In this document: piece after piece, positions 16,689 through 20,210 of the stretch
Position numbering within the stretch: position 1 is the stretch's first letter
Layout: every line of letters starts with the position of its first letter
Assembly (NCBI RefSeq): GCF_900111935.1
Contig: NZ_FOYN01000001.1
Location: forward strand, 62,001 to 126,000
Length of the DNA stretch: 64,000 bases
Reading direction: 5' to 3'
Origin: Halorubrum sodomense
Lineage (GTDB): Archaea > Halobacteriota > Halobacteria > Halobacteriales > Haloferacaceae
The notes under the pieces: model-generated
Databases searched by the model: none
Told to the model about the DNA's origin: nothing
What the model saw: only the letters and a program-made list of their open reading frames with translations
Position numbers and translations under genes: made by a program

Positions 16689-16846
16689 CGCGGTCCGCTT
16701 CGGATCTCCTCTCAGGTCGGCGGTCCGTCCTCACGACCGCGGCGTTCGGACGCCGAACCGGACGACGGACCGGCGGACCGCGTGAGCAACTGGCGGCCCG
16801 TCGTCGCGCGACAGTTTTACGCCCGCCGTCGCCGTCGTTCCCACGT

Positions 16847-18724
16847 ATGGCTCTCGACCTCGTCCCGGCGTGGCCCGCCGTCGGCTCGCTCGCGGGCGGG
16901 GCGGGAGCGCTCGCGCTCGCGTGGGCGATCCGCGAACACCGCGGCCGTCCCGGGGTCGACTGGTTCCTCGGGGTGTTCGCCGCACAGGCGACGTGGTGTT
17001 GCTCCTACGGGGTCGGGCTGCTCGTCACCGACCCGACGCTCCGCGCCGCACTGGAGGCGACGATGTGGCTTGGCGTGATCTGGACCGGGATCGCCTTCCT
17101 CGGCTTCGCGTTGGAGTACACCGGTCGGAGCGACGTGGTCCGGAGCCGCCTGTTCGGCGCGATCGTCGGGTTCGGCCTCCTCTCGTCCGCGCTCGTCGCC
17201 ACGAACCCGCTCCACGGCGCCTTCTGGACCGGCCTCGCGCCCGACCCCGCCTTCGGCGTCGAGACCGTCTCGTACGCGTTCGGGCCGTGGGCGTACCTCA
17301 CCGTCGCCGCGGAGACGGTCCTCGTCGCCAGCGCCGTCTTCCTCCTCGTCGACACGCTCCTCAGCTACGGGCCGCTGTACCGCCGCGAGAGCGCCGCGGT
17401 CGCCCTGAGCTCGCTGCCGCCGGGGTTCGCCTTGGTCGCGTGGACGCTCCAGATCGGCCCGGTCCCGCAGCTCCAGCTCGCGCCGCTGATGTTCGTTCCG
17501 CACATGATCCTCGACGCGTACGCGTTCGACCGCGCGGAGATGTTCGACCGGAACCCGACGACCAGCCGCGCCGCCGAGCGCACCGCGATCGACGACCTCC
17601 GGGACCCCATTCTCGCGCTCGCGCTCGACCGCCGCGTCGTCCGGCTCAACCCCGCCGCCGAGACGGTGCTCGGCGTCGACGCCGAGACCGCTCGCGACCG
17701 CCCGCTCGCCGAGTTCCTGGAGCTGCCGGTCGCCGTCGGTGACGGCGCCGACGCCGCCCTCGTGACCGGTGGGAGCGATCCGGACGACGGCCCCGGCGAC
17801 GAGACCGATTCCGCCGGTTCCGAGCCCGGGGACGGCGGCTCCCGCGAGACGGTCGAGATCGACTCCGCGGCCGGAACGGGGCGGCGAACCTACGCGGTGT
17901 CGGTCTCCCGACTGACCGACCCGAACGGGACCCACGTCGGCTACACGGTCGTCCTCTCCGACGTCACCGAACGCGAGCGCCGCCGCCAGCAGCTGGAGGT
18001 TCTCAACCGAATCCTCCGCCACAACCTCCGCAATGACGCCGGCGTCGTCCACGGCTACGGCGAGATCCTCCGCGACCGCCTAGAGGACCCGGAACTGGTC
18101 CGGATGGCCGACGCCGTCGAGCGCCGTGCGGGCGCGCTGGCCGCGCTCGGCGAGAAGGCGGGCACCGTCGAGCGCCTCCTCGCTGACAACGATCCCGTCG
18201 CTACCGACGTCCGCGAGCTCGTCGACTCGGTCGTCGCCGACGCCCGCGAGCGCGACGACGCGGCGCCCGTCGAACTCGCCGTCGAGGGCGACGACGCCGC
18301 GGAGAGCGACGACGCCGGAGACGGCGACTGGACCACGCGGGTCAGGCCGGACGCGCTCCGCGCGGTCGTCGAGAACACCGTGGAAAACGCGATCGACCAC
18401 CACGACGGCGAGGGGGCCGAGCGCGAGGACGGCGAGGCGTGGGTGCGGGTCGCGCTCCGCCGGGAGGGGGGCGACGGCGAGGGAACGACCGCGGGCGACG
18501 CCCGCTTCGTCCTCACCGTCGAGGACGACGGCCCCGGAATCCCGGACCACGAGGTCGAGGCGGTCGAGTCGGGCCGCGAGACGGCCCTCGAACACGGGTC
18601 GGGGCTGGGGCTGTGGGTCGTCGCATGGGGCGCCGCCGCGGTCGGCGCCGATGTCGAGTACGCCGACCGGGAGCCGCGCGGGACGCGGGTGACGGTGTCG
18701 ATTCCGGTCGTAGACGATTTATAA
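16847..18724 (+). CDS. Membrane histidine kinase (7TM-PAS-HK)
   Basis: A 625-residue sensor kinase. Seven hydrophobic segments fill roughly residues 5-225 (the histidine-kinase N-terminal 7TM region common in haloarchaea). A PAS domain follows (RTAIDDLRDPILALALDRRV) with an acidic low-complexity insert. The H-box has the phospho-accepting histidine in ILRHNLRNDAGVVHGYGEIL. The ATPase shows the N box VVENTVENAIDHHD, G1 VEDDGPGIPDHE and G2 GSGLGLWVV. No response regulator lies nearby. Its stop codon is directly adjacent to that of the converging homing endonuclease gene. Confidence 0.9.
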   Translation: MALDLVPAWPAVGSLAGGAGALALAWAIREHRGRPGVDWFLGVFAAQATWCCSYGVGLLVTDPTLRAALEATMWLGVIWTGIAFLGFALEYTGRSDVVRSRLFGAIVGFGLLSSALVATNPLHGAFWTGLAPDPAFGVETVSYAFGPWAYLTVAAETVLVASAVFLLVDTLLSYGPLYRRESAAVALSSLPPGFALVAWTLQIGPVPQLQLAPLMFVPHMILDAYAFDRAEMFDRNPTTSRAAERTAIDDLRDPILALALDRRVVRLNPAAETVLGVDAETARDRPLAEFLELPVAVGDGADAALVTGGSDPDDGPGDETDSAGSEPGDGGSRETVEIDSAAGTGRRTYAVSVSRLTDPNGTHVGYTVVLSDVTERERRRQQLEVLNRILRHNLRNDAGVVHGYGEILRDRLEDPELVRMADAVERRAGALAALGEKAGTVERLLADNDPVATDVRELVDSVVADARERDDAAPVELAVEGDDAAESDDAGDGDWTTRVRPDALRAVVENTVENAIDHHDGEGAEREDGEAWVRVALRREGGDGEGTTAGDARFVLTVEDDGPGIPDHEVEAVESGRETALEHGSGLGLWVVAWGAAAVGADVEYADREPRGTRVTVSIPVVDDL

Positions 18725-19465
18725 AGCGTGTGCCTCGCCGTACGCCTGTGCCTTCAGGCGATCGTAGCGCTCTCGCGAGTCGAGCACCCACTTGTACTCG
18801 AACCCGGGCGGCGGGTTGCCCATCCAGTCGAGGAACGAGCGGGTCTCTTCGACTCCAAAGCGGATCGTTTCGCGGTTGTACGTTGGAGAGAGATCGACCT
18901 CCTCAAACAGATTCAAAAGGAATTCCTGACGCTCGTCTCGGTTCCGTATCCGTATCGCGGCTCTAGGCTCACCGTTCTCTTGAACGTCGAGACACCCGTC
19001 ACAGACGTACCACATCTTCGCGATCCGTGGCGTGAGCGATAGGCTCTCTGGGAACCGCTTCTCGCCGGATCGGTACCATTGACGAAGTGACCGCATGAAC
19101 GGGTGGGAGCGCGATATGACGGTGTACATATCGTGATAGTTCTCAGCCCTCGCATTTGGGCTGAACCCCGATTCACGGTTATTCTGCGCCAGTTCCGCTG
19201 CCGTCTTTTTAAGCGAGACACCGGTACTCAATATCCCTATCTCGTGGTCGAACCACTCCAAGAATTGCTTGTTAACCATCGGGAGACGGAACAGGCCGTG
19301 AGAACCGTCGTTCGTCTTCGGGACGGATCCGTCACCCATGAGACAGCCGATGAGGATCTCGCGAAGGTACGTGGGAATCTCGGGGTAGTAACAGCTTCCG
19401 CGTGCCCAGTGACTACCGACCCGCTTGAACGACTTTCCGCATCCTAGACACGTTTCCCTCGGCAA
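18719..19465 (-). CDS. Free-standing LAGLIDADG homing endonuclease
   Basis: A 248-residue protein in a noticeably AT-richer stretch than its neighbours. Residues 6-25 form a possible zinc finger (C6, C9, H19, C25). The first LAGLIDADG helix is EILIGCLMGDGSV (catalytic Asp45). The second is MWYVCDGCLDV (Asp156). So it is a single-chain, two-motif endonuclease able to cut an asymmetric site. The start is a TTG one base after the pcna stop codon, with no ATG before the first motif, so translation may depend on coupling to pcna. It is intact and not an intein, because PCNA is uninterrupted. Confidence 0.82.
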   Translation of the reverse strand: MPRETCLGCGKSFKRVGSHWARGSCYYPEIPTYLREILIGCLMGDGSVPKTNDGSHGLFRLPMVNKQFLEWFDHEIGILSTGVSLKKTAAELAQNNRESGFSPNARAENYHDMYTVISRSHPFMRSLRQWYRSGEKRFPESLSLTPRIAKMWYVCDGCLDVQENGEPRAAIRIRNRDERQEFLLNLFEEVDLSPTYNRETIRFGVEETRSFLDWMGNPPPGFEYKWVLDSRERYDRLKAQAYGEAHAL

Positions 19466-19466
19466 T

Positions 19467-20210
19467 TTACTCGCTCTGAATGCGGGGGGCTAGCATATAC
19501 GTTGCGTTCCCCAGCCCCTCCGCGAAGCCGTAGTGGAGCTTGACGGGGAACTCCTCGCCGAGCTCGACGGTGACCTCTGCGTCGGAGGGGATCGCCTTGT
19601 TCATGTCCTTCAGGTAGTCGAGGCTGAACAGCGAGTCGGCGGGGCCGGCGGTGAGCGCGATGAGGTCCTCGCGGTCGAGCTTGAGGTTCACGTCGTCGGT
19701 GTCGCCCTCGGCCTCGATGAAGAACGCCTCGTCGGTCTCGTCGACGCGGAGGCGGATGTGGTCGGAGACCATGTCGGCGGCCTTGATCCCGCGGTCGAGC
19801 TGGGCGCCCTCGACGACGATCTCGGAGGCGAGGTCGAGGTCCGGGATGTCCGGCTCCTGGCGGATCGAGTCGGGGTCGATGAGCGCGAGGGTGTAGGATA
19901 GGCCGTCGATCTCGATGTGGAGCTTGCGGGTCTCCTCGTCGAGTTCGAGGTGGATCAGGTCGCCCGAGTTGGCCATGCCGGCGATGTCCTCCAGTCGGGC
20001 GAGGTTGACCCCGATGACGCCGCCGTCGGCGTCGTAGGATTCGAACGCGGCCGCCTCCAGCGTGAGGTCGACCATGCCGACGTTGGCGGGGTCGACGGCC
20101 CGGATGGAGAGCTCCTCCTCGTTCAGGCGGATCTTACACTCGTCGACCAACACGCTCACCGAATCGAGCGCGTCCTGAAACGTCGACGCGCCCACGATGG
20201 CCTTGAACAT
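19467..20210 (-). CDS. pcn: DNA polymerase sliding clamp PCNA
   Basis: A 247-residue sliding clamp, full length for haloarchaea, from [18 protein letters not shown] to the C-terminus [12 protein letters not shown]. It forms a ring that tethers the replicative polymerase and other PIP-box proteins to DNA. The acidic surface (for example [18 protein letters not shown]) is typical of halophilic PCNA. The promoter is leaderless (CCTTTTTAGG on the coding strand). The homing endonuclease gene begins one base downstream on the same strand. Confidence 0.97.

Follow-up and report, generated by a model that had tools for sequence, protein, structure and literature searches.

Behind the essential gene pcna of the haloarchaeon Halorubrum sodomense lies an intact gene for a LAGLIDADG homing endonuclease. 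It was found in a stretch of 64,000 nucleotides (contig NZ_FOYN01000001.1, positions 62,001 to 126,000), here called the window. Comparison with related genomes gives good support to a homing endonuclease that is free-standing, mobile and associated with the pcna 3' end: in close relatives, some sites are occupied, some broken and some empty. The probability is put at roughly 0.7 that the gene belongs to a homing element whose cutting target is the conserved end of pcna and which puts a resistant, recoded copy in its place. The new point is that the element appears to include the final 12 codons of pcna, exchanged with most of the endonuclease gene as one block. The parts of the window concerned are:

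18719-19465, minus strand: LAGLIDADG_2 homing endonuclease gene, TTG start, 248 amino acids, intact, two motifs
19467-20210, minus strand: pcna, the presumed host and target, complete, 247 amino acids, PCNA_N and PCNA_C above the Pfam cut-off
19470-19505, minus strand: recoded tail, the last 12 pcna codons (236-247), probably part of the element and holding the former cut site
19485-19493, minus strand: codons 240-242 (Leu-Ala-Pro), candidate core of the recognition site

Distribution of the endonuclease behind pcna

Fifty-two Halorubrum genomes were searched, and the 51 with a pcna ortholog form the denominator within the genus. The remaining one (G117, 94% complete) gave a 42% match only and was left out for want of a pcna ortholog match. 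The endonuclease stands behind pcna in 12 of the 51 genomes, intact in eight and broken or a remnant in four, and is absent from that place in 39. The preliminary description of this DNA had proposed a comparison of the regions downstream of pcna, with fixation in all relatives as evidence against a selfish gene; the endonuclease is not fixed. Clade A is intact in G000, G143, G123, G152, G127 and G148 and broken or a remnant in G115 and G136, and clade B is intact in G135 and G154 and broken or a remnant in G110 and G137. A thirteenth match in the genus (G125, 33%) is on a different contig from the pcna of that genome. Outside the genus, six genomes carry the endonuclease behind pcna: G062, G019, G370, G424, G252 (broken) and G310 (about 540 bp away). 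The 14 pcna-linked proteins in the endonuclease tree form one side of a branch with a support of 88/99, which is not fully secure.

Presence of the endonuclease shows no clustering by host ancestry on a tree of the mdh gene, which covers 45 of the 51 genomes (G133 is among those left out). The states A, B and none need 11 changes on this tree; shuffled labels need 11.4 on average and were as low in 89 of 200 cases. A single well-supported group (100/96) contains G115 with a broken A copy, G110 with a broken B copy, G124, which is empty with a more common tail, and G112, which is empty with a B tail. The empty intergenic region of G112 resembles that of G124, and its B tail would reflect either conversion of the tail only or loss of the endonuclease. 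The occupied G127 and the empty G105 are a near-clean pair; they differ at two of the 114 nt that precede the tail in pcna and at three of the 36 nt of the tail itself. An endonuclease gene of 744 bp replaces about 70 bp of intergenic DNA between them, and the kinase flank is largely identical.

The recoded end of pcna

The 3' end of pcna in other genera of the family is mostly uniform and written in common codons. These genera are represented by 60 genomes, roughly the top of a list of 167 family genomes with a pcna match (E 1e-60). Occupied alleles have rare codons in the last 12 positions, yet their protein stays near ...LAPRIQS(D/E). When codons are scored against a reference of the same pcna genes (codons 1-215, with mdh added for the medians below), the rise in unusualness begins at codon 236. 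No other 12-codon window of pcna is as unusual as the tail in any of the 18 occupied alleles, and the same holds for 6 of the 60 alleles from other genera, three of which (G010, G020 and G017) are from g6, the genus of the occupied G019. The median excess codon surprise of the tail, in bits per codon, is 1.60 in clade A (n=8), 3.21 in clade B (n=4) and 2.52 in the other occupied alleles (n=6), against 1.12 in empty Halorubrum alleles (n=39), 0.24 in other genera (n=60) and -0.28 in the mdh control (n=30). Mann-Whitney tests, uncorrected for ancestry, separate occupied from empty alleles within the genus (p 4.5e-4) and empty genus alleles from other genera (p 5e-8). A general relaxation of codon choice at gene ends is ruled against by mdh, a single control gene, where the effect was found in 0 of 30 genomes.

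In Halorubrum no part of pcna varies more than the tail, which has a nucleotide identity of 0.80 versus 0.93 for the body (tail lower in 1162 of 1225 pairs, 50 genomes). In the genera that yielded no pcna-linked copy the order is reversed, with 0.86 for the tail versus 0.82 for the body (tail lower in 247 of 1176 pairs, 49 genomes). G003 was omitted from this comparison as incomplete. G136 and G062 were omitted from the identities of the pcna body because their pcna is split into two tblastn pieces, which makes their body scores unreliable. Codon 240 is CTC or CTG in 0 of 13 intact occupied alleles, 1 of 5 broken ones, 21 of 39 empty genus alleles and 54 of 60 alleles from other genera. A tract of 36 nt is about the size of a LAGLIDADG site plus a margin.

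Several Halorubrum genomes have extra pcna-like genes (L234-L243) that are 38-71% identical to pcna. Ten 3' ends of such paralogs, from eight genomes, mostly end in an LAPR-type motif as pcna does. As a source of the tail they were rejected by eye: none of the ten matches a tail in full, and some share AGT GAC, ATT or CAA with it.

Joint exchange of tail and endonuclease

Among the 12 occupied alleles of the genus (G136 included), the similarity of the tail tracks the clade of the endonuclease (1 of 495 label permutations), and the similarity of the pcna body does not (404 of 495). Seven pairs of A and B alleles, picked by hand, are 0.88-1.00 identical in pcna up to codon 235 and only 0.44-0.78 identical from the tail to about codon 212 of the endonuclease gene. 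Beyond the endonuclease gene, the kinase flank is mostly 0.84-0.93 identical, with one more variable stretch. G110 and G000, for example, have identities of 1.00, 0.99 and 0.95 in pcna before the tail, 0.53-0.73 over the tail and the endonuclease to codon ~212, and 0.87-0.93 beyond it, save for one kinase window at 0.76. The host gene thus has a replaced 3' end that is discordant with its remainder, and these alignments display the exchange of the tail together with the endonuclease between pcna alleles. The preliminary description had suggested that the 3' end of pcna is targeted. The last 36 nt are recoded and travel with the endonuclease gene as that idea would have it; cleavage itself is what we infer from this pattern.

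The last 35 or so codons of the endonuclease gene remain similar between A and B alleles. In the B copy of G062 (Haloparvum), identity in this part is 0.78-0.80 in the first window and then 0.62-0.67, compared with both A and B. Since G062 is lower there, part of the similarity between A and B may be due to constraint, but most of it is exchange. B elements would then have entered alleles already occupied by A, with the 3' end of the old copy as the right-hand arm.

Proposed mechanism and alternative explanations

Haloarchaea mate and are polyploid. The element would be a unit of two parts, the endonuclease gene and the final 12 codons of pcna in synonymously recoded form. In a cell that contains both an occupied pcna allele and an unoccupied one, the endonuclease would cut the highly conserved 3' end of the latter. 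Repair from the occupied allele would copy in the tail and the gene behind it as far as homologous sequence in the kinase flank or, alternatively, in the 3' end of an older endonuclease copy. Because the recoded tail would remove the recognition site and spare the PCNA protein, the new allele would be immune and PCNA 'rescued'. The endonuclease may later decay or be lost, leaving the resistant recoded tail behind, and the site may then be invaded again by a clade with a different tail.

Several observations weigh against this mechanism. Of the 39 empty genus alleles, 22 likewise have no window more unusual than the tail, and neighbouring alleles that are both empty have tail identities of 0.69-1.00 (10 pairs, also picked by hand), so tail and endonuclease are not strictly linked. 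A paired phylogenetic test of codon 240 against presence of the endonuclease, with only 5 supported pairs, saw no effect. G127 and the empty G105 are alike in having neither CTC nor CTG at this codon, and G110, with a stop in its endonuclease, has retained CTC within an otherwise B tail. Between 9 and 81% of endonuclease windows reach the codon score of the tail in six clade A genomes, as do 16% in G062, and the tail beats every endonuclease window only in G135, G154, G370 and G424. The clade A tail is no more unusual in its codons than the endonuclease gene, and such tails could therefore be plain foreign DNA; part of the recoding may stem from foreign origin and not from selection for resistance. 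Synonymous divergence (dS) is higher in the endonuclease than in pcna in 16 of 16 pairs, and divergence therefore gives no sign of recent transfer within clade A. The mdh tree is also weak, with 9 of its 42 inner branches well supported.

The endonuclease might be a passenger in a block of tail and endonuclease that spreads by ordinary homologous recombination through the pcna and kinase flanks, without any cutting. Haloarchaea recombine freely, A and B alleles share pcna flanks at the identities given above (0.88-1.00), and block exchange alone needs no nuclease. This explanation is considered unlikely. The ratio of nonsynonymous to synonymous divergence (dN/dS) is 0.04-0.12 between intact endonuclease copies in 16 of 16 pairs; such purifying selection speaks against a chance open reading frame, and together with the intact catalytic motifs it indicates that the protein is used. 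The exchanged block has its left boundary where the recoded tail begins, and this tail, hypervariable in the genus that has the element, is not so in genera lacking a pcna-linked copy. Intact copies, broken ones and empty sites are moreover scattered on the host gene tree like shuffled labels, which also speaks against the endonuclease having been co-opted for a cellular role, such as regulation of pcna or defence against viruses that carry pcna or thyX. Some LAGLIDADG relatives such as WhiA became regulators (mentioned in PMC7282813), related enzymes adjoin viral thyX and polB genes, and the strong purifying selection would suit such a role. An enzyme that is absent behind pcna in 39 of 51 genomes of the genus, and broken or a remnant in 4 of the 12 others, fits it poorly, and it is held to be the least probable of the explanations considered.

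Hardly more probable is that the recoded tail is a regulatory device, either an AT-rich promoter or a means of translational coupling for the downstream gene. The window has a TATA-like TATATG 28 nt ahead of the TTG, and the probable GTG start of clade B is provided by the changed serine codon AGT, which fits coupling. However, the tail is recoded in empty alleles as well, and in 34 of the 39 empty alleles the next gene is the opposite-strand kinase; promoter or coupling was rejected as the main cause of the recoding for this reason. The clade B changes (AGA, ATA and CAA) also sit where no TATA box would be, and in G370 and G424 the endonuclease likely starts a dozen or more bases downstream. 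Homing with replacement of the pcna end is preferred to all three explanations.

The endonuclease and its surroundings in the window

The remaining features of the locus are:

19391-19450, minus strand: zinc-finger-like head, C6-x2-C9-x9-H19-x5-C25, with putative zinc binding
19328-19354, minus strand: first LAGLIDADG-type motif, LIGCLMGDG (D45)
18995-19024, minus strand: second LAGLIDADG-type motif, IAKMWYVCDG (D156)
18722-18829, minus strand: roughly the final 35 codons of the endonuclease gene, a likely right-hand recombination arm at its 3' end; A and B alleles 0.85-0.97 identical
18719-18724, no strand: TTATAA palindrome of 6 nt, common to the stop codons of the endonuclease gene and the convergent kinase gene
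16838-18724, plus strand: histidine kinase gene (HisKA_7TM, PAS, HATPase_c), the convergent right flank

The preliminary description of an intact two-motif LAGLIDADG endonuclease, for which no strand was stated, is borne out on the minus strand. The protein matches Pfam LAGLIDADG_2 (PF03161) with 36.4 bits (cut-off 25, E 6.5e-9) and the homing endonuclease phrog_11023 in PHROGs (E 4.7e-51). An alignment of the window protein with seven relatives, one of them from behind thyX, has D45 (LMGDG), D156 (VCDG), C6, C9, H19 and C25 invariant in all 8 rows. This agrees with the zinc-finger-like head described earlier, and the loss of catalytic aspartates that would have spoken against a selfish gene is not seen. 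The best fold match of an AlphaFold2 model built from these 8 rows is I-SceI (E 9.1e-7, template modelling score 0.56). The predicted protein thus has a LAGLIDADG fold, in a model of moderate confidence: the mean predicted local distance difference test score was 72 in the best of five models and 35-49 in the other four. No match was obtained in NCBIfam, or in a sequence search of the PDB at E up to 1. No intein part was found in the 248 amino acids, where Pfam at E up to 10 matched just two LAGLIDADG models. One copy of the endonuclease was found in the genome from which the window comes.

A single base, 19466, separates the pcna stop from the TTG start, as had been described. The G+C content is lower than in the surroundings, also as described, with 0.54-0.58 in five 250-base windows in or almost wholly in the gene and 0.63-0.77 in the flanks. 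The endonuclease gene was said to end flush with the stop codon of a converging kinase gene; the two genes do converge, and instead of meeting flush they overlap by the 6 nt of TTATAA, with the kinase open reading frame ending at 18724. The kinase match begins 21-116 bp behind pcna in 33 of the 39 empty genus alleles and at 456 bp in one, and none was found in the other five.

With pcna complete and both PCNA domains present, the earlier conclusion that the endonuclease is neither an intein nor an intron holds, and the gene is free-standing. Upstream of the endonuclease, pcna was found in all 18 pcna-linked loci and was whole and in a single piece in 14; besides the two split genes of G136 and G062, those of G424 and G252 are cut by the end of the locus. 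Translation starts, picked from the sequence, differ between copies: clade B likely has a GTG start inside the last pcna codons, whereas G370, G424 and G019 probably start about 12 to 60 bases beyond pcna and G310 about 540. The preliminary description had the gene use the pcna tail for its translation, which may be so; the clade B start suits that idea better than these distant ones. A sigma-70 scan, which does not reach archaeal promoters, found no promoter and two terminator-like sites upstream of pcna.

Relatives linked to thyX and in viruses

Endonucleases of the sister clade lie about 50 bp behind thyX (Thy1 by Pfam) on the chromosome in 3 of 17 genomes compared in a Halorussus-like genus; 18 genomes were searched and one (G434) was left out because it is cut. 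In Halorubrum virus VOLN27B a related endonuclease is found directly behind the viral thyX. This locus is a thyX-endonuclease unit in a virus (L162, 3296-4690); its endonuclease frame is open from an ATG right after the thyX stop, and the deposited coding sequence starts 180 bases later. Like the pcna-linked gene, to which they are 40-47% identical, the thyX-linked endonucleases follow a conserved nucleotide-metabolism gene directly or at about 50 bp, and ThyX ends in LAP where PCNA ends in LAPRIQS(D/E). They differ in their host gene and in the recoding, which is weak and limited to the last few codons of thyX (n=4). The top score there, 0.75 in G348, is below the highest window of that gene itself, and the recoding of the thyX end is only a lead. 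At the Leu-Ala-Pro codons of ThyX, CTCGCGCCC is present in 9 of 14 unoccupied alleles and in none of the three chromosomal and one viral occupied alleles. For the recognition core, this codon comparison offers a lead, no more.

A wider reading is tentative, and the balance is somewhat against it. The element would be a natural archaeal home-and-rescue drive, in which the product of a LAGLIDADG gene would cut an essential replication gene at its near-invariant 3' end, with a synonymously recoded version of just that end carried along as the antidote. Competing clades, each with its own tail, would oust each other from the site. The recognition core would be CTCGCGCC, which encodes Leu-Ala-Pro at the ends of both PCNA and ThyX and would have enabled the family to pass from one of these genes to the other, both on chromosomes and in a virus.

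A viral source was not identified. No relative was found in IMG/VR with a single sequence, and 14 phage records are at most 41% identical; of six IMG/VR relatives found by alignment (34-41%), none has pcna or thyX directly upstream as judged by eye. Halovirus HGTV-1 (L163, 2902-6581) has a related endonuclease directly in front of its family B DNA polymerase gene. Endonucleases in G296 and G278 (L097, L098) form a separate branch, are 34-36% identical and have no pcna or thyX upstream. Two endonuclease matches in G412 (C1, 617361-697230) each occur twice with equal spacing (~72 kb), which suggests a large duplication or an assembly repeat.

Comparison with known systems

The WHO elements of Torulaspora and Lachancea yeasts (Coughlan et al. 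2020, PMC7282813) resemble the pcna element in many ways, as far as the portion of that paper considered here describes them. They have a LAGLIDADG-kind endonuclease with a zinc-finger part downstream of an uninterrupted conserved gene, different histories of the 5' and 3' parts of the host gene, and intact and decayed copies; each homing replaces the 3' end of the host gene and confers resistance, as we infer for pcna. The pcna element is unlike them in being archaeal, in having pcna, and perhaps thyX, as host instead of FBA1, and in its 248 amino acids with an N-terminal zinc-finger-like head and no intein part found. The replaced tail is just 12 codons, and neither a downstream fragment of the host gene nor tandem clusters were seen. 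A protein-level scan for such a pcna fragment up to 1500 bp downstream gave one weak match on the coding side against seven on the reverse-strand control, and a DNA-level scan up to 250 bp behind 117 pcna alleles did no better than shuffles. In G252 (L095) an in-frame PRIQTDSE with a stop follows the pcna stop and resembles a displaced older pcna end; it was not significant in the scans. The pcna element works like the WHO elements and yet is not one, because no downstream fragment and no intein part were found.

Phage enzymes of intronless homing belong to other families, GIY-YIG or HNH. The pcna element differs from intronless homing in T4 by its LAGLIDADG enzyme, its place on a cellular chromosome and its signature of synonymous recoding. 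Both have a free-standing endonuclease gene and a donor presumed resistant by sequence difference, and the co-conversion of flanks described for T4 in PMC2988022 has a likely counterpart in the co-exchanged tail of pcna; the phage enzymes cut hundreds to thousands of bp away, whereas the target here probably lies within ~40 bp. HomeR, an engineered home-and-rescue drive in Drosophila, targets the 3' coding end of PolG2, an essential replication gene for a subunit of the mitochondrial DNA polymerase, and carries a re-coded rescue (PMC7968924, in part). Unlike the pcna element, it is artificial, CRISPR-based and at work in insects.

The nearest described case is a free-standing pfam03161 gene in glycosylation islands of Haloferax (PMC5867893). 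It is of the same Pfam family and on a haloarchaeal chromosome, and homing was suggested by its authors. They reported no protein-coding similarity in its flanks, and the part of the paper considered describes no replacement of a tail. A homing endonuclease linked to pcna or thyX in archaea was not found in open-access titles and the beginnings of abstracts, a search that most subscription papers fall outside. A term search found pcna unmentioned in PMC11078007, PMC3990103 and PMC4071816, and in the part of PMC3950731 considered, viral PCNA and endonucleases are mentioned apart from each other.

An arrangement like that of the WHO elements on an archaeal chromosome, at pcna and perhaps thyX, would suggest that this class of element arises repeatedly. 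The system is small, with 248 amino acids, a tail of 36 bp and organisms that do no harm, and makes immunity by synonymous recoding of an essential gene directly testable. Its 36-nt footprint predicts the location of the recognition site for a family of enzymes for which no experiment was found in the literature searched. The element would be a natural counterpart of engineered rescue drives, and the long-run outcome of such a drive, with decay, resistant alleles and re-invasion, is apparently recorded in living genomes.

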